IMG/VR virus record: IMGVR_UViG_3300005826_000193 | Coordinates: 1-24,525 of that record | Strand: one strand, 5' to 3' | Length of the DNA stretch: 24,525 nucleotides | Source of the DNA: a virus | Notes under the pieces: model-generated | What the model was told of the DNA's origin: nothing | Seen by the model: only the letters and a program-made list of their open reading frames with translations | Database searches by the model: none | In this document: piece by piece, positions 3,732 through 24,525 of the stretch | Layout of the letters: every line of letters begins with the position of its first letter | Position numbering within the stretch: position 1 is the first letter of the stretch | Position numbers and translations under genes: made by a program

Positions 3732-6019
3732 CCGATCGCCTTGATGCGTGGAAGCGGATTGTCCTGGACCCGTGTAATGCTTCCGTTCAACGGAGGAACA
3801 CGGCGGCCGTTCGGGACTCCCTCGAGCAGATCGTGAACTACATCACGAACATCAATCAAGAGGGGGGCGCGGATGAGATCGTCTTCTTTGAGGTGCAAGA
3901 AGACGACATCGGAGATCCGGATAACGATGGGGTCCATGTAAAAGCCCTCGATCTGACAACATTTGGGGCAACGGGGGTAGACTACACACTCTATGACTAT
4001 ACCCCCAATAAGAGGTTCGTGCAGAACTTCGTCCAGGGGTTCCGAGGAGTCGGAAGGATTTCGCCCGAGATTGGCGAGCTCAGTCTGGTCGTAATCGAAC
4101 TGGAGGGAATGGCCCGCTGGATCGACGGTACGTTAACTGAAGACTGGGGTGCGACGGCGGCAAATTCAATCGAAGCCTCGGTTGAAAATTACTGGGGCGC
4201 GTTTCCGAACATCCATGATCCTGGCGCCACCGTGACGGTGTATGACCGAGATCACGTAGGCTTCAACGCGAAAGAGGGCGACCGGTTTCTTGCGGTCTGG
4301 GATGAGAAGGATCAAGAATACATCCTTGTGAAGGTGAACGACGAGGAAGTCGTCTTCTTTCGCGTGAAAGACTCAACGGGTCAGTTCACTCAAAGTACGG
4401 TCGTCGAAGAGCTCGAGTTCACGCAGTCCGGGACGGCGAATATCACGGTCACTAAGACAGGCCGCGAATTCATCGCCTATGACTACACCCCGAATCTTCG
4501 GTTCGCGCCGAACTTCGTGGAAGACTACTACGGGGTGGGCCGGCACGCCCCGGAACTGGACGACGCCTTGATCGTAATGGAGGTCGAGGGGCTGGCTCGG
4601 TTCATCGATGGGGAATTCCTGTCCGACATGATCGGAGGATTCGCTTCGGGCCGGGTCGACCATTTCTGGGGGGCCCATCCCAATGTCTATGATCCAGGAT
4701 CTCCCGTTCAAGTTTGGGACCCTAACCGGCTCGCCTCGGACGCGAAGACCGGGGACGCCTTCATCGCGATCTGGGACGAACAGCGACAGAAGTACATCCT
4801 GATCGTGAGCAAGCGGGATTGCCCCTGCGGCTTCTCGGGCGAAGTCGAGTACATCCGGGTCTGCAACACGGATACCAACTCCTGCTGCCTCTGGGATGGC
4901 GTAATTAAACGTCTCGACGCGGAACGCACCGACAACTTCTGCGCTCCGGAATACTGTTTCAAACCGATCTGGATCTGGGACTTCGTCACGGCGCCAAACG
5001 GGGAAGGCGTGACCTTCCCTATGCCCTGCCCTCCCAGCTACCAGTGGTGCGGCTACGGGATGCTGCTCAAACGCGGGCACGATTGCAACGGAGACATTCG
5101 TGACGTCTACGCCGTGATGCGGGATAGCTGCTGCGAATGCTTCTGCCCAGGGACTACCGTCAAGGTCACGATCCCCGCGTTCGACTGCCAGCCGGAACTC
5201 GTATTCAACGCCACCTGCGTTACGAAGAACCCGATGGAGCCAGAAATCGAACCCGGCTGGTGGGGCGAGTTCGAGTACACGGGAGAGTACCCTCTCATCG
5301 GCCGAGTCGTGAATATCGATCCGCTTTTCCCACTCATCATAGGCGGGGAGAACATCGATTCGGTTTACGTGGTGCTAGGCTGTAACACAAGAAACCTGAC
5401 CGGCGACAACCTCACCTTCGCGGACTTCTGCCGAATTGACCGGACCTTCTACAACCCCGTCGACTCCGATGAGTTTGTCGAATACTTCGGGGACTTCACT
5501 TCGATCGGAACCGTTTCGGGTCCCGACGTTCCGATTCTTGATTCGGAAGGCCACTTGATCTTCTGCTCTCGCAAAGAACAGTACGGTCTCTTCTTCAAGT
5601 GCAGTCAAGGAAACACATTCGGCGCGACGCTCTATCACCTTAGCCCGGAAGGCGATCGTACCCTGAACATCGACGCCTGCACGGGGACCCTTCAAGTGCC
5701 GGGTGAAGGCGAACACATCGGAGACGCGAACGGATCCGATGACTCGGCGTCCGGCTGCTGTGACTTCCAGGACGCGAGTACACATGACACGGTCTTCGGG
5801 GGTTCCTATTCCTGTGACAGTGTGTTGTCAAAGGACACGAATAATCTGGTCTTTAACGGTTGGAACCCCTGGCAATACCATGTCCTGGGCGGGTGCCGTG
5901 CGACGATTGCCGCTCACTTCCCGGCTCTCGCACCTTACATCCCCGCCGTGGATCCGGGGGAGACGATCGTGACGTTCGATATTGATTGGAGCGGAACCGA
6001 CGAGTGCAAGGAACTGTAG
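3728..6019 (+). CDS. Cys-rich repeat protein, putative tail or adhesion protein
   Basis: This 763-residue protein is not recognised. Residues about 89-203 and 251-362 are two copies of one module: each begins YDYTPN-RF--NFV, continues with GVGR--PE, EG-AR-IDG and WGA-PN--DPG, and ends WDE--Q-YIL. A short lead-in strand (EIVFFEV, EVVFFRV, EVEYIRV) recurs at residues about 50, 207 and 372, so a third, diverged unit may start there. From residue 365 the composition changes sharply: about 26 Cys in the last 399 residues, several in pairs (NSCC, DSCCECFC, SGCC), against one Cys before. That suggests disulfide-stabilised or metal-binding exposed domains. The ATG overlaps the nozzle stop and has GGAGG at 3712-3716; longer in-frame starts would sit inside the nozzle gene. 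Its place next to the nozzle suggests a tail-tip or receptor-binding role, which is inference. Confidence 0.7.
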   Translation: MTDRLDAWKRIVLDPCNASVQRRNTAAVRDSLEQIVNYITNINQEGGADEIVFFEVQEDDIGDPDNDGVHVKALDLTTFGATGVDYTLYDYTPNKRFVQNFVQGFRGVGRISPEIGELSLVVIELEGMARWIDGTLTEDWGATAANSIEASVENYWGAFPNIHDPGATVTVYDRDHVGFNAKEGDRFLAVWDEKDQEYILVKVNDEEVVFFRVKDSTGQFTQSTVVEELEFTQSGTANITVTKTGREFIAYDYTPNLRFAPNFVEDYYGVGRHAPELDDALIVMEVEGLARFIDGEFLSDMIGGFASGRVDHFWGAHPNVYDPGSPVQVWDPNRLASDAKTGDAFIAIWDEQRQKYILIVSKRDCPCGFSGEVEYIRVCNTDTNSCCLWDGVIKRLDAERTDNFCAPEYCFKPIWIWDFVTAPNGEGVTFPMPCPPSYQWCGYGMLLKRGHDCNGDIRDVYAVMRDSCCECFCPGTTVKVTIPAFDCQPELVFNATCVTKNPMEPEIEPGWWGEFEYTGEYPLIGRVVNIDPLFPLIIGGENIDSVYVVLGCNTRNLTGDNLTFADFCRIDRTFYNPVDSDEFVEYFGDFTSIGTVSGPDVPILDSEGHLIFCSRKEQYGLFFKCSQGNTFGATLYHLSPEGDRTLNIDACTGTLQVPGEGEHIGDANGSDDSASGCCDFQDASTHDTVFGGSYSCDSVLSKDTNNLVFNGWNPWQYHVLGGCRATIAAHFPALAPYIPAVDPGETIVTFDIDWSGTDECKEL
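3992..4813 (+). repeat. Internal protein duplication (two ~115-residue modules)
   Basis: Copy 1 spans about 3992-4336 and copy 2 about 4478-4813, separated by a linker containing a second EVVFFRV strand. The copies share aligned YDYTPN, GVGR, IDG, WGA-PN, DPG and WDE landmarks but are well diverged at the DNA level, so the duplication is old. Confidence 0.8.
5815..5830. promoter_or_regulatory. Isolated operator-like palindrome inside a gene
   Basis: TGACAGTGTGTTGTCA matches the leader palindrome TGACAACGTGTTGTCA at 14 of 16 positions, with the outer TGACA/TGTCA arms intact. It lies in the coding sequence near the end of the Cys-rich protein, about 190 bases before the small genes at 6021 and 6217. 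It could be an internal operator or a chance match. Confidence 0.35.
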
Positions 6020-7624: not shown

Positions 7625-8704
7625 ATGCCAATCGTCGTCAGCCACCAGCCGAATATGAACCTGCTCGCGGATGCGAGCTACCGGGCCGGCCTCGGTCAGT
7701 ACCAACAGCAGCAGCAGGAAATGCAGCAGCGAGAGCGGATGCAGATCCGGGCCCTGCAAACCAACCTCTATTCGCAAGCGCAGGCGCAGGAAGCGGCGCT
7801 TCAGCGTCAACTGATTGGCGGCGAGCAGGACTTCCGGCGTCAAAGCCTGCTGATGGAAGAACAGCAGAAATTTCAGCGTGAAATGCAGCGCGAAAAAATG
7901 CAGGCTGACAACGATCAGTTCCGCGCGGACATGGAAAATCGGAAAACCGAGGCGATGCTCCAGCGGGAGTCAATCGAACGTCGGCCGATTGCTAAGTTCT
8001 ACATGAATGAATCGTCGCGGATCATGAAACAGATTGATGACGCCTTGGCCGAGGGGATGGTATTTGACTCGAGTCCAGCAGCTAACGAGGAAGCGATGCG
8101 GCAATGGATGGGCGCAAAACGAGAGATAGGAATAATCCAGTCGGAAGGGACAATGTTCCCATTTCAGCAAGGAGAAACAATTTACCAAAAGCTCGTTAAT
8201 CAACCGGTCCCCAGCATACGCGCTAAGGGGTTCCAGGATGAACTCAACGAGAACATGGCTGAGATACCCGATCCATTCAACCCGGAACTCAAACGAAAGA
8301 TCATCCGGCGAGGGATGGCCGAAGACATCACCCCCGACCCGCCAAAACAGGAAGACCCAAAACCGCAAAGCATGAAGGACCTGATATTCGGTGTCAGCGC
8401 GGAGGCGATCACAAACCATATGAAGCTCCGGGCACAAGCGATGAAAGAGCTAACGAAAAAGGTCCCTGACGGAACAGGCGGATTCAACGAGCAGCCGCCC
8501 ACTTCGGCGGATATTGACGAGTGGATTCAGAACTACGTGGACAACGAGGGGAAGACGACAAAAGGAGAACAGAAGCAAAAACCGGAAGGGCCGGTATCGG
8601 CTTGGCCTCCACCACCCCCATCGAATCCGCTTAACGGGATTCCGACGGATGAAGAACCGCTTAGCTGGTCTTATCAAACCGGACCTACCCCCAGGGGGTT
8701 GTGA
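7625..8704 (+). CDS. Gln-rich coiled-coil virion protein, 359 aa
   Basis: The N-terminal half is a long Gln/Glu/Arg-rich helix with heptad-like spacing (GLGQYQQQQQEMQQRERMQ, then EEQQKFQREMQREKMQADND), strongly suggesting a coiled coil from about residue 25 to 120. The middle is mixed helical, and the C-terminus is Pro-rich (PPPPPSNP) and probably unstructured. Composition and position directly before the giant protein suggest an internal core or ejection protein, as in T7 gp14/gp15, but no family match is claimed. The start has only a weak ribosome site and lies 3 bases after the previous stop, so translational coupling is likely. The stop overlaps the next start (TGATG). Confidence 0.6.
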   Translation: MPIVVSHQPNMNLLADASYRAGLGQYQQQQQEMQQRERMQIRALQTNLYSQAQAQEAALQRQLIGGEQDFRRQSLLMEEQQKFQREMQREKMQADNDQFRADMENRKTEAMLQRESIERRPIAKFYMNESSRIMKQIDDALAEGMVFDSSPAANEEAMRQWMGAKREIGIIQSEGTMFPFQQGETIYQKLVNQPVPSIRAKGFQDELNENMAEIPDPFNPELKRKIIRRGMAEDITPDPPKQEDPKPQSMKDLIFGVSAEAITNHMKLRAQAMKELTKKVPDGTGGFNEQPPTSADIDEWIQNYVDNEGKTTKGEQKQKPEGPVSAWPPPPPSNPLNGIPTDEEPLSWSYQTGPTPRGL

Positions 8705-11700
8705 TGCCTCGAGTCGAAACTGAATTCGGCGATACGTTTACTTTCCCTTCAGGGACACCCCATGAAGAGATCGATCGCTACATCCGCGGGTTCTACGATT
8801 CAAAGAAGGTCTCCCCGGCATCACGAGACCCGATGAAGATCGCCATGATGAAGGTCGCCAATGCAAAACGGCAGACCGAACTGTTAGGGGAAGTCCCGAG
8901 CGCTCTCGAGTACATTCGGCAAGCGGTTGGCTACGGTGCGGGACCGACAACTCAAGCAGGGACTCAAGAAGAACGCTTTGCGGCTCACCAGAAAGCGATA
9001 GGGAAAACCAGCCACCGAAACGCGATGTACGCTTTGGAGAGGCTCCCTTTCAGCCCAATTGGGTATCTACGAATGCGGCTTCTCCGCAAGGCGAAAGAAA
9101 GGTATGACGCGGGGAAAGCGACCGATATCGATCTGGCCGCTCTCGCGGAAGCCCAGGCTGAACAACAAAGCCAATCCGAAACGGGTCTCTTGGGTGGGGC
9201 GGTTGACATCGCGACTGCGGTTCCTGGAATGGGGGTCGAGTTCGCGGCCACAGCGGGGCTTGGGTCCGCCGCCGCGAAACGGATTGGGGTCGCTCTTGCG
9301 GGCAAGTCAGGAGGGGCAGTTCGCGCCGCTTCAGTCGGCGCTGCGAAGTTCGGTGCTCGAGCGGGAGTTCAAGCCGCACTGATGCCGCATCGGTCCCTTC
9401 AAAATGCGGAAGCTCGACTTATCCAAAATCCGGACAAGGGGTACTCACGTTCGCTGTTTGACGGGTACGTCGATACGGCGATTGAAGTGGGGACTGAATT
9501 AGTGGGGGCCTATCTTCCTCGGCCCAAAGTGTTGAATCGATTGAGTAAGTTCCTGCAAGAGAAATCCGGGCTGTCTTTAGAGGCGTTCAATAAGCTTCGG
9601 TCCAGGATGGGGATCCAAGGCGTGTTCTCCGAGTACCTCGAAGAACGGATTGGTGAGAGCACCAAAGGGCTGACTATCGATCGTGGCAAGTTCGATGGGC
9701 CCATAGGTGATCTGCTGCAAGGCAACATCAATGATGCCATCGACAAGTCGCTGCAAGAGTTCATCGCTTTCTCGATCCCGGGTGCGGCATTCAAGGCGAC
9801 TCAGGCTTCGGTCGCAGGGTTCAAAGCGCTCAAAGACCTGGGGGAGAGATTCGACGCAAGGACCACGGCGCCGCCTTTGGCCCCTACCGAGAAAAAAGTA
9901 GAACAGTCCGCCGCCGAACTTTTCTTTGACGACAATCCCGGCAAGGTGGACAGCGTGGCCTCCTTGGAGGACGTCCCTTCGCGTACCGCGTTCTCCAAAG
10001 CGACCGGATTGCCGCGTGCCGATGTGAACTCCGCTACTCGAGCGGACTTTGTAAAAGCGGCACGTCAACTGCAAAAGGAATCGCCGGCAGAAGCTCCCGT
10101 TGAAGAAACTCCCGCCGAAGAAACACCACCAGCCCAGTTAAAGGGCAGCCACGATATCCTTCAGCGGGTATCAGCGATTCTTGATTCACCACCCAGCCTA
10201 CAAGAAAGGAAAGTGTTTCAGGCCCCTGAAGCGAATGGCGCGATTCGCGAAGAGCTTCAAGGCATGTCCGCAAGAGAGATTGCAACTGAGTTCGGATACA
10301 AGAAAGGAGCGTATCGAAAACAATGGATGATCGACCAAGTAATAAAACGGTTGGATCAACAGCTCCAGCGCCCTGCACCGGAGAAGAAGCCGGAGACCCC
10401 GACTTCGCCCGCTGCACCGTCTACTCCTGGTACAGCTACTGTTGGGCCGGACTTGCCGACCACTACGGAGACGCCCGTTGTCGAAGCTCCCGTTGTCGAG
10501 CAAGTGAAATCCGAAGAAGGGCCGCAGCTCTCCGAGAGCGAGAAGAGGACCAATGACTCGCTGCCAAGCGACCGAGAGGGTCTCGTAAGCCTCGCAAGCA
10601 CGCTGGGGATGAAAGTACCCAAGGCCGGGACGAAAGCGTACCAGAAGCTCGATCCGGAAGCGCTAAGGGTCGAGCTGGCGAAATTGATGCCGTCTCAAGA
10701 GGCTCCGGCCAAGAAGATCGGGGTGAAGGAAGCTCCAGTCGAGGAAGCTCCAGTCGAGGAAGCTCCAGTCGTTGAGAAGAAGCCTAAGGTTGGTTTAAAG
10801 ACTGAGGAGGAAGCTCCGGTCGTTGAGGAGAAGCCTAAGGTCGGTCTAAAGGCGAAAAGCACGAAAGAACGGCTCCGTATCACCCCGGAAACGGAAAGAG
10901 ATACTTCGGTAAGAGACACCTCGGATACGTCAGTTGCAGAGGGGCTTGCTAGGTTCAAATATTTGATGGGAGTCGAAATGAGAATCGCTCCCGCAGAGAC
11001 CGACGAAGAACGAGACGCCGAAGAGATAGTTAAGAGATTTGGATTACGCCCTGTTTTTATTACAGGAAACTCGGCACTCCATGGGTTCTCCCACAAAGGG
11101 GTGATCTACATCAACAAGGGATCAGAGAAGGGGGTTATGTCAATTGTGGGCCATGAATTGGCCCATGGGACTGAGATCGACCTTTTAGAAGACACTTTCG
11201 ATTCTGATTTCGTTGCAGAGTACTCGGACAAGTACTACAAGAAAGCACCAAAAGCTTATCAGAAACAGCTCGATAAGAACCCAAAATTGAAGTACCGAGA
11301 AGGGGTCGCGATGATCGTTGAAGAATTCTTCAGCGATCCAAAATTCAGGTCCAACGTGATGAATAATCACCGCCTTGGGTGGGCGTGGATTGTTACCAAG
11401 GCTTGGAATGCGATCAACGGGACTTCAGCCCGATCCAACGCGATGCAGAAGGTGATGAGTCTGCTCAAGCATCACCTCTCGATGGAGCGATACAAACGGG
11501 CCGAAATTGAACGTCGGGCCAAAGAGTTCGCTCGCACCTTTAGCGTGGAAGCGGGACTGAACCTAAGTGAATCCGAACTCAGACAGATGGAGTCGGATTA
11601 CGTTAAGCTCGTCGATCAGTTTCAAACTGAAAGAGTTCAGGTATGGAGAGATATTGAGGACGCGAAAAGCAAAATTAAAAAGAACATCGGCATGGATGCT

Positions 11701-14700
11701 GGCCGGCTCCGGAAACATGTTGAAAGTGGAAAAGACTATTCCGCCCAAGGTCTTAGATTGGACGAATGGGCCCAATCGCTTGCCCGCGAAACGCATGGGC
11801 TCCATGGGGTATTTTCCGGAACTGGAGAACAGGGCCCCGACTATGCGGCGGAAATTTGGCCGTACCTTATTGAGAACCAGGACACTTCCCCTCCGTCCAT
11901 CTTAGATGACGGTCTTCACCGTGCAGTAGAAGAAGCAGTTGCGAGTGGGATGGGTCCTGAAGTATCGGAAAGTACTGAGTATACGGGGTATACGGATGCC
12001 CGTTTTGACGAGGACTTGAAAACGGCAAACGAACTTTCCGAAGACGACGCGGCCATCCTAGGCGAAATCGCGAAAGAGTTGGCCAAGGAGAATGAGATTT
12101 CCGGGTTCGGACCTACGGACCTTAAATCTGACGAAATGAAAGTGGAAGCATTCCGCCACCTGCGGAGACTGCTAGAAACTCCACCGGATAGTGACATGCC
12201 ATTCTCCGTCACAAAGGGAAAAGACGATCGAAGCGCGGAAGAACTGAAACAGATCAGGGAGCGAATCGCGAGGATCCCAGGTACGAAAACATTGGCGGCG
12301 CGGCTGGCAAAAGAAGGAAAGCTCCCCTCTCTGGAAGAGGTGGAAACCTTACGTGCTTTCGGTCGGTCGAATGTGGGGACCACCCAGGCTACCCGTGAAC
12401 GAATCTTCGCAATGGATCTGGCGAAGGGAGCACCCGACTACACGTCACGCGCGTGGCTCCAGAAGTTGGCGGATTCGGAATACAAGAAAGACCCAGAAAA
12501 GGTAAAGAAGGAGTTCATCGCTAGGTTCAGAAAGAACCCCGAAGAGATGCTGAGTCCGAAAGACACGCTGCTGGCCCAAAAGATCATCGACGAAACTGCA
12601 CTAGACGTTGTAATGCAGGGGTCGCCTAAAGCACTCTTCGATCTCGGTAAAATTCGATTGGGGTATCGTCTTGGCCGATCTCAACAGTCGATTGCTCTCG
12701 CGACTCGCGACCCGCTGATTAATAACAAAAGGATCCTTCATCAGCGTGCGATTCTAGACGCGTTCGCTGACTTGACTGAAGACGAACAGACAGCCTTCAA
12801 GCTGGAACTGAAGCAGAATGGGATCGACCTCACCAAAAAAGAAACTTACGAAGATTCGGAGAAGATAATCCGAGCGCTTTCGCTTAAGCGGGCCGGGAAG
12901 TGGGGGTCGATTTCGGACGTTGCCTTTGAATTCTTCCAGAATTCGATTCTATGGGGCCCCCAAACACATGTCAGAAACATCGAAGGTAACTTGGTGATGG
13001 GGGCCCTATTTAACACGTTTGTGCGGGCTGCAGAAATCATTACCTCGCAAACGAGGGCCATCCTGAAACAGTCGGTTGGCATTAAGGTAAACCAGAACGA
13101 TGTCAAAGACTTCAACGAGATGCTCTATCTCTTCAAAGCGCTGGGCCCCTCTTTGCAAATCGCCGCCCGAAGAATGGCTCTTGCTTGGAAGTACGAATAC
13201 TCGCCGCTTAATTTGATGCTCGATCAGGAAGGCGAGCTCAAATGGGCCGCAAAGGCATCCAACGCGATTGGTTCAGTCACTGTAGGCGGAAAGAAGATTG
13301 ACGTGGGGAAGAAAATCCGAATTCCTTTCCGGCTTTTGAAGGCAGCCGACGAGTTTGCGAGAACGACAGCGGCCCACACGGCGGTCGCACTTCACGCCTA
13401 TCGGATCGCGAAGCAGGAAGGAGTAGCGGACAATTTTGCCGTCCTTGAGAGGCGAATGAGCGAACTGGTGGCGGATCACTCCTCCCTGGCTTGGTCAAGG
13501 GCTATCGCGGAAGCAGACTATCAGACGTTCCAGCAAAAGGGCGGCCCCATGGCTCGCGGGACCAAAGTCGCAGTCCAAAAGCTGAAAGACATTCCGTTTG
13601 CGGGATGGCTCATCAAGTACAAAATCCCCTTCTCGAACTTTTTGATTAACGTCCTGGGTGTGATTAGCGATTTCACTCCAGGGGCTGGCGTGGTGATAGC
13701 CCACATCAACAACTACTACAAGAACAAGAACCCGAAGGAATACCGAGACTTTGAGATTAACTGGGACCGAGTCTACGGGAACCAGATGAACGGGATTCTG
13801 CTCATGGGGGCGATCGCTTACCTGATGCAGCCCGATGAGGATGACGATCTTCCGAGGCTCACCGGAACGCGGGAGGTGCGAGTCGAAAGGGCCGGATCTC
13901 AATACCGAACTGCCCCTCCGAAATCAGTTCTTCTCAGAGGGAAATACGTCAGCTATGACGGGGTTGAACCTATCGATTCGCTGATCGCTGGCTGCGTCGA
14001 CTACTTCAATGGACGATTGACTGCGCCTCAAGTATCGCGGCTGGAGCAGGTCCTCACTTCGGGGATCGGCCAGATCGACGATAAGAACTACTTCCAGGGC
14101 GCTCAGGACATTCTCGATTTGTTCCGGACAGAAGAAGGTCGAAGCTTTGTGGACCCGGTTGTCGATATCGGCGTCGGGTTTGTCCCCAACGGGTGGAAAC
14201 AACCTCATCGAGAATATCGAAACGCGATCGCAGACACGCGAATTCGGTATACGGATACCTGGGCCCAAACCGCTCATAAAATTGCCATGAAAGCGGAAAT
14301 CCCGTTCATTGGCTACATCTACAAGTATGATCCTTGGGGGAACAAGATGCACCCGAGTTCGCCCAACACATGGCTCCCTTTGCGGCTCTTGGGCCCCAAC
14401 ATAAAAGACACGAAGGACATCCTGCCCGTGGATATGGTGATGTTCAAGTGGAACACCAAGCACCCTGATAAAGCCATCCATTTCGGGATGACGAAATATC
14501 CCAAGATCCCTGGTCCGCCGCTCACCCCGTCCGAGTTTGAAAGCTACGCCAGGGAAGTGGGGCAGCGGGCCCTGAAGTACGTGAACAACACGGTTGACCT
14601 TAAGAAAGAACCCACTGAAGAGACGATGACTCTGATTCAGAGTCTCCGAAGAAAGGCCCAGTCGGATGTCAGAGAAGAGCTCGTCTACAAGCGGTACAAA

Positions 14701-14739
14701 CGAGGTATCACAGGACAAGCAGAAGGAGTCACTCGCTAG
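8704..14739 (+). CDS. Giant multidomain internal virion (ejection) protein with zinc-protease motif
   Basis: This 2011-residue polyprotein-like product fits the large polyvalent proteins of podoviruses. Residues 1-30 hold a short N-terminal motif (GDTFTFPSGTPHEEIDRYI). Residues about 150-230 are Ala/Gly-rich and hydrophobic and could insert in membranes. About 460-740 is an acidic Pro/Glu/Ala-rich linker with repeats. Around 740-930 lies a protease-like domain: HELAH at residues 817-821 and a possible third ligand in EGVAMIVEE (E866). The C-terminal third has WGPQTHVRNIEGN (residue 1417 on), a pattern recurring in giant phage virion proteins, and a hydrophobic segment near 1633-1653, resembling the LPD38-type domain. 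Such proteins are usually packed in the capsid and enter the cell with DNA; T7 gp16 is the shorter analogue. The ATG at 8704 is preferred to the GTG at 8701 because AGGGGG (8693-8698) is better spaced. Confidence 0.75.
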   Translation: MPRVETEFGDTFTFPSGTPHEEIDRYIRGFYDSKKVSPASRDPMKIAMMKVANAKRQTELLGEVPSALEYIRQAVGYGAGPTTQAGTQEERFAAHQKAIGKTSHRNAMYALERLPFSPIGYLRMRLLRKAKERYDAGKATDIDLAALAEAQAEQQSQSETGLLGGAVDIATAVPGMGVEFAATAGLGSAAAKRIGVALAGKSGGAVRAASVGAAKFGARAGVQAALMPHRSLQNAEARLIQNPDKGYSRSLFDGYVDTAIEVGTELVGAYLPRPKVLNRLSKFLQEKSGLSLEAFNKLRSRMGIQGVFSEYLEERIGESTKGLTIDRGKFDGPIGDLLQGNINDAIDKSLQEFIAFSIPGAAFKATQASVAGFKALKDLGERFDARTTAPPLAPTEKKVEQSAAELFFDDNPGKVDSVASLEDVPSRTAFSKATGLPRADVNSATRADFVKAARQLQKESPAEAPVEETPAEETPPAQLKGSHDILQRVSAILDSPPSLQERKVFQAPEANGAIREELQGMSAREIATEFGYKKGAYRKQWMIDQVIKRLDQQLQRPAPEKKPETPTSPAAPSTPGTATVGPDLPTTTETPVVEAPVVEQVKSEEGPQLSESEKRTNDSLPSDREGLVSLASTLGMKVPKAGTKAYQKLDPEALRVELAKLMPSQEAPAKKIGVKEAPVEEAPVEEAPVVEKKPKVGLKTEEEAPVVEEKPKVGLKAKSTKERLRITPETERDTSVRDTSDTSVAEGLARFKYLMGVEMRIAPAETDEERDAEEIVKRFGLRPVFITGNSALHGFSHKGVIYINKGSEKGVMSIVGHELAHGTEIDLLEDTFDSDFVAEYSDKYYKKAPKAYQKQLDKNPKLKYREGVAMIVEEFFSDPKFRSNVMNNHRLGWAWIVTKAWNAINGTSARSNAMQKVMSLLKHHLSMERYKRAEIERRAKEFARTFSVEAGLNLSESELRQMESDYVKLVDQFQTERVQVWRDIEDAKSKIKKNIGMDAGRLRKHVESGKDYSAQGLRLDEWAQSLARETHGLHGVFSGTGEQGPDYAAEIWPYLIENQDTSPPSILDDGLHRAVEEAVASGMGPEVSESTEYTGYTDARFDEDLKTANELSEDDAAILGEIAKELAKENEISGFGPTDLKSDEMKVEAFRHLRRLLETPPDSDMPFSVTKGKDDRSAEELKQIRERIARIPGTKTLAARLAKEGKLPSLEEVETLRAFGRSNVGTTQATRERIFAMDLAKGAPDYTSRAWLQKLADSEYKKDPEKVKKEFIARFRKNPEEMLSPKDTLLAQKIIDETALDVVMQGSPKALFDLGKIRLGYRLGRSQQSIALATRDPLINNKRILHQRAILDAFADLTEDEQTAFKLELKQNGIDLTKKETYEDSEKIIRALSLKRAGKWGSISDVAFEFFQNSILWGPQTHVRNIEGNLVMGALFNTFVRAAEIITSQTRAILKQSVGIKVNQNDVKDFNEMLYLFKALGPSLQIAARRMALAWKYEYSPLNLMLDQEGELKWAAKASNAIGSVTVGGKKIDVGKKIRIPFRLLKAADEFARTTAAHTAVALHAYRIAKQEGVADNFAVLERRMSELVADHSSLAWSRAIAEADYQTFQQKGGPMARGTKVAVQKLKDIPFAGWLIKYKIPFSNFLINVLGVISDFTPGAGVVIAHINNYYKNKNPKEYRDFEINWDRVYGNQMNGILLMGAIAYLMQPDEDDDLPRLTGTREVRVERAGSQYRTAPPKSVLLRGKYVSYDGVEPIDSLIAGCVDYFNGRLTAPQVSRLEQVLTSGIGQIDDKNYFQGAQDILDLFRTEEGRSFVDPVVDIGVGFVPNGWKQPHREYRNAIADTRIRYTDTWAQTAHKIAMKAEIPFIGYIYKYDPWGNKMHPSSPNTWLPLRLLGPNIKDTKDILPVDMVMFKWNTKHPDKAIHFGMTKYPKIPGPPLTPSEFESYAREVGQRALKYVNNTVDLKKEPTEETMTLIQSLRRKAQSDVREELVYKRYKRGITGQAEGVTR
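10729..10851 (+). repeat. Coding tandem repeats in the giant protein linker
   Basis: A 15-bp unit (GAAGCTCCAGTCGAG, coding EAPVE) occurs at 10729-10743 and 10744-10758, and its start recurs at 10759. From there a 42-bp unit coding EAPVVEKKPKVGLK occurs at 10759-10800 and again, slightly changed, at 10810-10851. Similar acidic EAPVE pieces are scattered earlier (about 10090-10130 and 10470-10500). The linker probably grows and shrinks by slippage between relatives. Confidence 0.85.
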
Positions 14740-16916: not shown

Positions 16917-17278
16917 GCGACGAAATTCTCTACACGCACGGGCTTCACTTCTCAAAAGGGAGTGTCAACTTTGTGCGGGATTACGGGGTCCGGAAAAGCG
17001 ATGTCGCTGGCGATAACGCTGTCAGCGGAAGCCTTGACCTGACAACTGCCTGGGAGCTGATCCCCTTGGCGGATGTCGCGACTCCCGGCGTTTGCTCGTT
17101 CGAGAACATCGGATCGGATACGATTGAAATCCGAGAAGACGATACGGGAGACCCGCGTCTTGAAATTGCACCCGGCGAGGCGTGGAGCTTCCGCGTCAGC
17201 GCGACGGGGTTCGCTACTCCCGCAGCTCGAGCGGCCAACACGGTCTCCCGGCTGTCCTACTTGATTGTCGAGGCTTGA
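16913..17278 (+). CDS. Small hypothetical virion-module protein, 121 aa
   Basis: Not recognised as a family. The sequence alternates hydrophobic and polar residues with Gly/Asp turns (for example VCSFENIGSDTIEIREDD, then EIAPGEAWSFRVSA), the look of a compact beta-sandwich. The segment FENIGSDTIEI...IAPGEAWSFRV resembles small phage proteins that carry a supporting structural or decoration role. It overlaps the terminase stop by 4 bases and ends 1 base before the portal start, so the three are surely co-translated. Membership in the head module is inferred from that position. Confidence 0.65.
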   Translation: MSDEILYTHGLHFSKGSVNFVRDYGVRKSDVAGDNAVSGSLDLTTAWELIPLADVATPGVCSFENIGSDTIEIREDDTGDPRLEIAPGEAWSFRVSATGFATPAARAANTVSRLSYLIVEA

Positions 17279-17279
17279 C

Positions 17280-19052
17280 ATGCTTGACCCAAACAATCCC
17301 GGCCAGATGAAGAACTTCATCTCCTCGGTTCGCGCCAGTCATCGGAAGCTGGAAAGCTTCAGGACTCAGCGCCAGGAGCTGATCCGCGATTACGTGGGGA
17401 GCAACTACGGGGAAAGCGGATCCTCCGTCAACGAGATGCCGGTCAACATGTTATCATTGATGGTTGACACCTATCTGATGAATCTAGCGGGTTCAACGCC
17501 CCAGGTCCTGTTACCAACCCCGCGACAGGATCTACTTCCGTTCGTTGCGAATCTCGAAGCGATCGTGAATCAAGAACTCCTTGACATGCGTTTCAACAAA
17601 ACGCTCCGTCGTTGGGTCCTGGAGGCAATATTTTGCATGGGGATCATCAAGAACGGCTTGGTCGATGCTGAATACATCGAGATCTTGCCGGGCGAGCCCC
17701 AACCCTATCAGGAATACTTCGCGGAGGTGATCGACTTCGACGACTTCGTGTTCGACACCGACGCGAAGGACTGGACCAAGATCGCTTACCTGGGGGACCG
17801 CTACGTCGTCGACTACGACGCGGTTATGGCGAGCAACGCTTACGACGATCGCGGGAAAGCGGCTCTCCGAGCTCGAGAAGAGTACCAGGGCGGAGAGGCT
17901 CGCGCTTCGGATATCGAGTTCTCTAAGGAGAGCGAGTATTCCGGGCAGACATGGCGAAAGACCGCGAACGTCTGGGACATTTGCTTGCCCGAACAGCGGA
18001 TGATTATCACGGTCCCCGACTCAGACGACTCGGCCTTCCCTCTGAAAGTGGTTCAGTGGGACTGGCCAAGCACCAGCCCCTACAAGTGCCTCTTCTTCAA
18101 TGAAGTTCCGGGCAATCTGATGCCGCTTTCGCCGGCCATGGTTGTGAAGTCACTGAACAAGTCGCTGAATGCCCTCTATCGGAAACTGGTCAATCAGGCG
18201 AAGCGACAAAAGACGATCGGACTCTTCCGGCACGGGGAGCAAGATAACGCGGAACGGATCGCCAAGGCGAACGACGGAGAACTGGTCCCGGTCACGCATC
18301 CGGACTCCATTAAGGAAGTCTCTTTCGGTGGTGCTGCTCAAGAGAACCTCGCGTTCGCGATTCAGGCGAGAGACCTGTTCAGTATGCTGGCCGGAAACCT
18401 GGACGCAATGGGCGGGCTTGGTCCTCAGAGCGATACGGCCCGCCAGGACGCGATGATCGCGGGAACGGTCAGCCAGAAGCTTGCTAAGATGAGCGAACTG
18501 GTCGTGGACGCGACTACCGAAGTTCTCCGGGACATTGTCTATCACATCTGGAACGACCCGATCCGGACTTATCAAGCGACTCGGCAGATCGCCGGAACGG
18601 ACGTTATCATCCAGGCGGACATGCCACCGGGAGAGCGGTTTGGCGACATCAACGACTTCGATATCAAGATTGAACCTTACTCGATGAAGTATAAATCGCC
18701 CAACCAACGGGCCAACGAGATCACCAACCTGATGGCGACGATCGTGATGCCGATGCTCCCCATGCTCCAGCAACAGGGGGTTGGAGTGAACTACCAGAGT
18801 CTTTTCGAGATGCTCAGCAAATACATGTCGTTGCCTGAGCTCCAGCACATCTTCGAGTTCATGGGTCCGCCCATGCCGGGTACGTCCGGCCAGGAGGCGA
18901 GACAGCCGCAAGTTTCTCATCGAACTTACGAACGGGTGAATCGGCCGGGGGCGACCCGCCAGGGGAACGATCAAACGATGGTTCAGCTCCTGATGGGCGG
19001 TAACCCTCAACCCGATCAAGTCGCATCTCTGGGACGGCCTACAGGAGTTTAA
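17280..19052 (+). CDS. Portal protein (head-tail connector)
   Basis: At 590 residues it is a little longer than T7 gp8 (about 535). It would form the dodecameric ring at one capsid vertex through which terminase packs DNA. Supporting sequence includes the N-terminal helix region (SSVRASHRKLESFRTQRQEL), an acidic wing (YFAEVIDFDDFVFDTDAKDW), a stem-like stretch (KSLNKSLNALYRKLVNQAKR) and a helical segment with SMLAGNLDAMGGLGPQSDTA that is typical of podovirus portals. The ATG at 17280 is preferred to an upstream TTG at 17265 because GAGG (17270-17273) is 6 bases before it. It follows the terminase with one small gene between and precedes the scaffold, as expected. Confidence 0.85.
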   Translation: MLDPNNPGQMKNFISSVRASHRKLESFRTQRQELIRDYVGSNYGESGSSVNEMPVNMLSLMVDTYLMNLAGSTPQVLLPTPRQDLLPFVANLEAIVNQELLDMRFNKTLRRWVLEAIFCMGIIKNGLVDAEYIEILPGEPQPYQEYFAEVIDFDDFVFDTDAKDWTKIAYLGDRYVVDYDAVMASNAYDDRGKAALRAREEYQGGEARASDIEFSKESEYSGQTWRKTANVWDICLPEQRMIITVPDSDDSAFPLKVVQWDWPSTSPYKCLFFNEVPGNLMPLSPAMVVKSLNKSLNALYRKLVNQAKRQKTIGLFRHGEQDNAERIAKANDGELVPVTHPDSIKEVSFGGAAQENLAFAIQARDLFSMLAGNLDAMGGLGPQSDTARQDAMIAGTVSQKLAKMSELVVDATTEVLRDIVYHIWNDPIRTYQATRQIAGTDVIIQADMPPGERFGDINDFDIKIEPYSMKYKSPNQRANEITNLMATIVMPMLPMLQQQGVGVNYQSLFEMLSKYMSLPELQHIFEFMGPPMPGTSGQEARQPQVSHRTYERVNRPGATRQGNDQTMVQLLMGGNPQPDQVASLGRPTGV

Positions 19053-23154: not shown

Positions 23155-23934
23155 ATGGCCGTCGAACTGGAAACCATTCTCGAACAGACGACGGTGACTT
23201 CAGTAGATATCGACGATACGTCCAAGGTCTGGATGGGCGTCGATCTCGAGGTGGCCGCTTCCTCCACGATCGCGGCTCAGGTCTCGCGAAAGATCGCGCT
23301 GGCCGAGCTCATCATCGCGGGGTCCACCAATCAGCTCAGATCGGGCTCAGGCGTCCCAGATCCGGGCCTCGGAGTCAACGGCGACTTCTACCTCAATACA
23401 GACAACCAGGACCTCTACGGGCCCAAAATGGGCGGCTCCTGGGGGACTCCGGTTTCTCTAGTTGGCCCGCAAGGCGATCAAGGTCCCCAGGGCGATCCTG
23501 GACCGCAAGGACTCCAGGGAATTCAAGGTGTCCAGGGCGACCCCGGCGCGCAGGGTGACCCCGGCCCGCAAGGTGATCAAGGGATCCAAGGGATTCAAGG
23601 CGACCCGGGAACACCCGGTGCGGCAGGGGATCCCGGCGCGGACGGCCGGACCGTTCTCAACGGGACGGGCGCCCCGACAACCGAAGGGGTGAACGGCGAC
23701 TTCTACATCGACACCAGTGCTTGGGAGATCTATGGACCCAAGACAGGGGGTGCGTGGGGGAGTGGAGTTTCGCTCATCGGGACTAACGGCACCGACGGGA
23801 ATACGATCCTCAACTCGGCGTCGACCGGACCGAATCCTGGGGATGGCGTGGATGGCGACTTCTTCATCCGCACGGACCTTCAGCTGGTCTATGGGCCCAA
23901 GGCGGGTGGGACATGGCCGGCTGGCGTGTCCTAA
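23155..23934 (+). CDS. Collagen-like tail fibre, first part to an in-frame TAA
   Basis: 259 residues to the TAA. The N-terminal about 60 residues ([20 protein letters not shown], then [18 protein letters not shown]) are helical/strand and probably anchor the fibre. A module ending YGPKMGGSW is followed by a Gly-X-Y collagen stretch (about 23464-23646, e.g. [20 protein letters not shown]). Then come two further modules of the form NGD/DGDFYI-T--YGPK-GG-W-GV. The TAA at 23932-23934 falls where sister modules encode Leu (CTA, CTC, CTG), and the same frame stays open beyond. AAGGG (23143-23147) is 7 bases before the ATG. Trimeric fibres of this type bind receptors. Whether the TAA is read through, a mutation or an error cannot be told. 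Confidence 0.75.
23464..23646 (+). repeat. Collagen-type Gly-X-Y repeat
   Basis: An uninterrupted run of Gly-X-Y triplets, with many GDP, GPQ and GIQ triplets, codes about 61 residues. Repeated DNA words such as CAAGG and GGCGATCC make it prone to slippage and to assembly error. Many CAAGGTGATC words also look like extended Shine-Dalgarno sites. Confidence 0.85.
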
Positions 23935-24525
23935 GTTGGGCCGCAGGGCATTCAAGGTGATCCTGGAGTCGACGGGACGAGCTTTGTCATCAAGGGTACT
24001 GTCGCGGACGTCCCTTCGCTCCCACCAACCGGAAATGACATCGGCGACCTCTACATCGTCCAGTCAGACGGTCACGGCTACGCATGGGACGGAGCCGCCT
24101 GGGTCGACGTCGGCATGATCCAGGGTCCTGCGGGTGATCCAGGAACGAATGGCGTGGATGGGAACACGATCCTTTACGGGACCGCGGGGCCCGCACCTGG
24201 GGATGGTGTCGACGGCAACTTCTACATCGAGACCGACATCCAGTATCTGTACGGCCCCAAGGCCGGCGGAGCATGGCCGGCGGGCGTCCCGCTAAAAGGG
24301 AATACCGTCCTCAACGGGACGAGCGACCCCACGACCGAAGGCGTCTACGGTGACTTTTTCCTTCGAACCGACACGAGCGAGATGTTTGGCCCGAAGAGCG
24401 GGACTTGGCCGGCCGGGGTCTCACTGATCGGGCCAACGGGGCCAACCGGTCCGCTCGGGCCTGACGGACCTCAAGGCGATCCCGGCGACCCCGGAGCTGA
24501 CGGAAGCACCGTCCTCAATGGGACA
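23935..24525 (+). CDS. Collagen-like fibre, continuation after the TAA, partial at right edge
   Basis: The frame of the upstream fibre stays open for 197 codons to the window edge, and its protein is plainly the same fibre. It begins [15 protein letters not shown], then a distinct module (GNDIGDLYIVQSDGHGYAWD), then two more YGPK/FGPK modules, and finally a collagen run with GPTGPTGPLGPDGPQGDP. There is no ATG, GTG or TTG near the TAA; the first in-frame ATG is at 24115, inside a module, so an independent gene is unlikely. It therefore reads as the second half of a single fibre gene that is interrupted or read through. The gene continues off the window. Confidence 0.7.

Follow-up and report, generated by a model that had tools for sequence, protein, structure and literature searches.

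An in-frame TAA, possibly a private nonsense change, in the predicted collagen-like tail fibre gene of a tailed phage

The coding frame of a gene predicted to encode a collagen-like phage tail fibre was found to be interrupted by an in-frame TAA and to be otherwise intact, in an arrangement that is not due to chance. The window, by which we mean the whole stretch of DNA analysed, is an entire IMG/VR record, a linear fragment of 24,525 bases. As to the origin of the TAA, we give about an even chance to a private and recent nonsense change affecting a tailed-phage adsorption fibre that is modular and collagen-like. The features concerned are as follows.

17265–19052, + strand: portal gene; its stop is TAA, whereas TGA stands at this place in three related portals
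23155–23934, + strand: upstream part of the collagen-like tail fibre gene, 259 amino acids to the stop, with an N-terminal region, a collagen Gly-X-Y stretch and three YGPK...W...GVS modules
23464–23649, + strand: collagen-like Gly-X-Y stretch (Pfam Collagen, E 1.1e-8; repeats D3 and D7)
23845–23931, + strand: core of the module ending at the stop, 29 residues
23932–23934, + strand: in-frame TAA, where parallel modules have Leu (no stop at 175 module ends in relatives)
23935–24525, + strand: open frame past the TAA to the contig end, with a KGTV...WDGAAWVDVG module, two more YGPK modules and a collagen stretch (phrog_3904, Pfam Collagen)
24115–24117, + strand: first in-frame ATG past the TAA, with no Shine-Dalgarno sequence seen, an unlikely start

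The upstream 259 residues matched the tail-fibre profile phrog_6320 with an E of 1.3e-16 and the downstream 197 residues matched the tail-fibre profile phrog_3904 with an E of 6.5e-20, PF01391 (Pfam Collagen) was matched on both sides of the TAA above the gathering score (E 1.1e-8 and 9.9e-7), and annotated tail fibres were matched by the window fibre in tblastn. The synonymous codon bias (0.121 upstream and 0.106 downstream) and GC3 (0.703 and 0.701, respectively) were equal across the TAA, and the other two frames downstream of it contained 3 and 6 stops. Furthermore, the comparison of module M3, upstream, with module M4, downstream, resulted in a dS of about 1.6 and a dN of 0.19, indicating purifying selection across the TAA. 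At the site itself the window has TCC-TAA-GTT, whereas the parallel modules have TCT-CTA-GTT, TCG-CTC-ATC, CCG-CTA-AAA and TCA-CTG-ATC. Because the profile matches, codon bias, GC3, frame stops and parallel modules agree, the two parts represent one interrupted coding frame. These results bear out an earlier note on this DNA, which had described an in-frame TAA inside an otherwise intact collagen-like fibre, Leu codons at the same point of the parallel modules, and the same modules continuing for at least 197 codons past the TAA; the frame is indeed open for 197 codons, up to the contig end at 24525. The gene is incomplete, as this end falls inside the modules and the distal tip lies beyond it.

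The fibre gene stands last in the order terminase, portal, capsid, SU10-type adaptor, 113-residue protein and fibre. A search of viral_contigs with the portal yielded five siblings, and no matches were obtained with the capsid in viral_contigs or with the portal in genome_contigs. The siblings, at about 55% portal identity, keep the gene order of the window as far as their contigs reach, and their fibre slot is occupied by other, unrelated proteins that are mostly tailspike-like. No collagen stretch was present in the three sibling contigs scanned, and no true orthologue of the window fibre was found, the siblings carrying other fibre genes. Since the siblings hold other proteins there, the slot at 23155–24525 is, judging from gene content, a fast-changing site of receptor-binding swaps. 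In L082 (6232–6549), and downstream of the adaptor in L083, L084 and L085, different fibre or tailspike genes follow the adaptor and a small protein of the 113-residue type. It was also observed that the window encodes, at 8701–14739, a 2,012-residue protein with EAPVEEAPV-type repeats and no Pfam or PHROG match, which has relatives of 32–41% identity in two sibling contigs and may be a large internal protein of the virion. Since the longest two of the sibling contigs measure 50–51 kb and the window is cut off within the fibre modules, the record probably represents about half of a genome.

To place the stop among related fibres, a wider survey covered 144 loci carrying the module, with 175 distinct module ends, in a viral collection from which the nearest records to the window are excluded, so that near-identical strains lie outside the comparison. 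The residue at the site equivalent to the stop was Leu at 154 of these ends, Ile at 15, Met at 3, Val at 2 and Asn at 1, and a stop at none; a search of relatives for the Leu codon had been proposed in the earlier note as a check. No in-frame stop with modules on both sides was present among the loci fetched by the two fibre halves, nor was any other in-frame stop among the 144 module-bearing loci, and searches of viral_contigs for the motif with TAR, or for a longer motif with TRA, returned 0 matches versus 114 stretches for the sense motif. Same-frame neighbours in the wider survey proved to be separate genes or antisense frames. Of 35 related ORFs whose end falls within the locus, 34 have their stop at least 53 residues past the last module, after a distinct C-terminal segment, and the remaining one, in L155, is itself frame-broken. 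Because related ORFs stop this far downstream, GVS would be an unusual end for such a fibre. Frame breaks in collagen repeats were observed in two relatives, at about 5351–5465 in L155, in a GGGG run, and at about 5359–5453 in L198, in near-identical repeats; these are probably indel errors or damaged genes.

The interruption is thus private among the fibres compared and the remaining frame is intact, as would be found with a nonsense mutant or a consensus error. With regard to the base changes, two neighbouring bases separate CTA from TAA, and TTA is the only Leu codon one step away, by a single transversion. TTA was found at 20 of the 175 module-end codons in the relatives but is uncommon in the window genome (17 of 557 Leu codons). 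A one-step origin would thus have had to begin from a rare codon, and any other route needs two adjacent changes or two compensating indels. The earlier note had offered a nonsense mutation and compensating indels as separate options; the former stands, together with a consensus error, and a paired indel cannot be distinguished from either a double substitution or a change of TTA into TAA.

If the TAA is a nonsense change, translation would end after residue 259, and the product would keep the N-terminus that binds the virion, a single collagen stretch and three modules but lose the distal tip. The carrier would then make a shortened and probably non-functional fibre, in an event of the same kind as the fibre loss in lambda stf. 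The intact downstream frame may mean that the change is too young for decay or that intact variants co-exist in the population.

A serious possibility, to which we give roughly one chance in three, is that the metagenome consensus is wrong at the TAA, or mixes strains there, and that the real gene is uninterrupted. The IMG/VR fragment stops amid repeated modules 591 bases past the TAA, the change from CTA involves the two adjacent changes or paired indels described above, and the breaks in L155 and L198 show that such records do carry broken frames. However, it is unlikely that a pair of errors would put the frame right again within four bases, and the absence of a broken frame in the 17 other genes of the window, together with the absence of an exact repeat of at least 16 bases in the fibre region, argues against a general error problem. 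Misassembly through internal repeats was rejected as a candidate, the longest exact repeat in the fibre being 15 bases.

Programmed or leaky readthrough of the UAA, by which one gene would give fibres of two lengths, was also among the options of the earlier note. The frame is intact past the TAA, which sits at a module border, and phages do use readthrough for minor virion proteins, as in the A1 protein of Q-beta at UGA (PMC8067240). The coat/A1 arrangement resembles that of the window in having an in-frame stop and an open extension in a virion protein; in Q-beta, however, UGA is read through about 1 in 15 times (PMC8067240), whereas the stop of the window is UAA and is private to one record. 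No related fibre shares the stop, the searches for stop-containing motifs were empty as described above, and no tRNA gene, and hence no suppressor tRNA, was found in the window or in the sibling contigs L326–L332 (121 kb). The UAA stop is usually the tightest, that is, the least leaky, in bacteria. Neither a leaky context nor a stimulatory structure was found, the context being UAA G and the RNA folds near the stop being ordinary, with z-scores against shuffles of −0.13 for the 100 bases after the stop and of −1.53 and 0.43 for two windows around it. The proposal of readthrough is therefore not supported by these results and we regard it as improbable, and the same low probability applies to the idea that the balance between short and long collagen-like fibres on the virion is governed by a UAA readthrough switch.

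Other modes of expression of the downstream part were considered. Programmed frameshifting or bypassing was rejected, as the downstream part is read in the zero frame and has lost no residue relative to the parallel modules; of the overlapping frames, +1 runs into a stop codon in about ten codons or fewer, and −1 (ORF 23717–24118) encodes no module. A split gene with reinitiation was likewise rejected, since no start codon adjoins the TAA in the continuing frame. The earlier note had stated that a downstream independent start is missing; an in-frame ATG is in fact present at 24115, 180 nt downstream, but no Shine-Dalgarno sequence was seen at the usual distance from it and its use would discard a module. 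The stop region reads TAAGTTGG in the window versus TAATG or TGATG in L161, L195 and L203–L209.

Separately, in eight or nine related contigs, a collagen-like fibre was observed to be split into two genes inside a "WDG-AWVDVG" module, at 113–140 in L161, 5351–5354 in L195, 5123–5150 in L203, 5117–5150 in L204, 5090–5150 in L207, 835–862 in L208 and 2778–2805 in L209, and also near 3995–4005 in L160. In most of them the stop shares bases with the following start (TAATG or TGATG), with the first part ending in ...YIWDGV and the second beginning with MAWINAG, which looks like stop-start coupling of two fibre parts. The same module is intact in the window, at about 24078–24114.

Slightly less probable still than readthrough is the view that the 259 residues make up a finished, working short fibre, with the downstream part left as a dead remnant. 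The stop falls right at a module end, but none of the 35 related ORFs ends at a module, and the downstream frame is without the decay expected of a remnant. Finally, decoding of TAA as a sense codon by the phage can be practically dismissed: its one attraction is the in-frame TAA in the fibre, whereas the 17 other genes of the window, which end in TAA (3), TAG (5) or TGA (9), contain no internal stop, TAA included, and the TAA that follows ...RPTGV at the portal C-terminus sits in the same place as the TGA that follows ...RPTGV or RPTGT in L082, L083 and L084. The portal comparison shows that TAA acts as a terminator in this genome and refutes a general reassignment of TAA, in agreement with the earlier view that a whole-genome code change is unlikely.

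Taken together with known systems, the window fibre resembles the collagen-like tail fibres (PHROG 6320, 3904 and 819; PF01391), in which Gly-X-Y stretches alternate with small YGPK...W modules, although in all the relatives surveyed, unlike the window, the frame is open through the module. A nonsense change in the window fibre would find its closest parallel in lambda stf, likewise an adsorption fibre gene broken by a small mutation with the rest intact; stf was mutated in 19 of 21 independent low-adsorption lambda mutants (PMC2762979). The lesions in stf are mostly single-base frameshifts in homonucleotide runs, whereas that of the window is an in-frame TAA. In lambda, stf is dispensable, and disrupted copies occur in many mutants as well as in the laboratory strain.

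If the TAA is an error, it calls for caution in annotating fibre genes near contig ends, and only if readthrough were shown would it represent a new way of setting fibre length. The loss of adsorption-fibre genes is a recognised source of phage polymorphism, as exemplified by lambda stf, and, if the mutation is real, the window would add one more example from nature in which a small lesion has inactivated an adsorption fibre gene.
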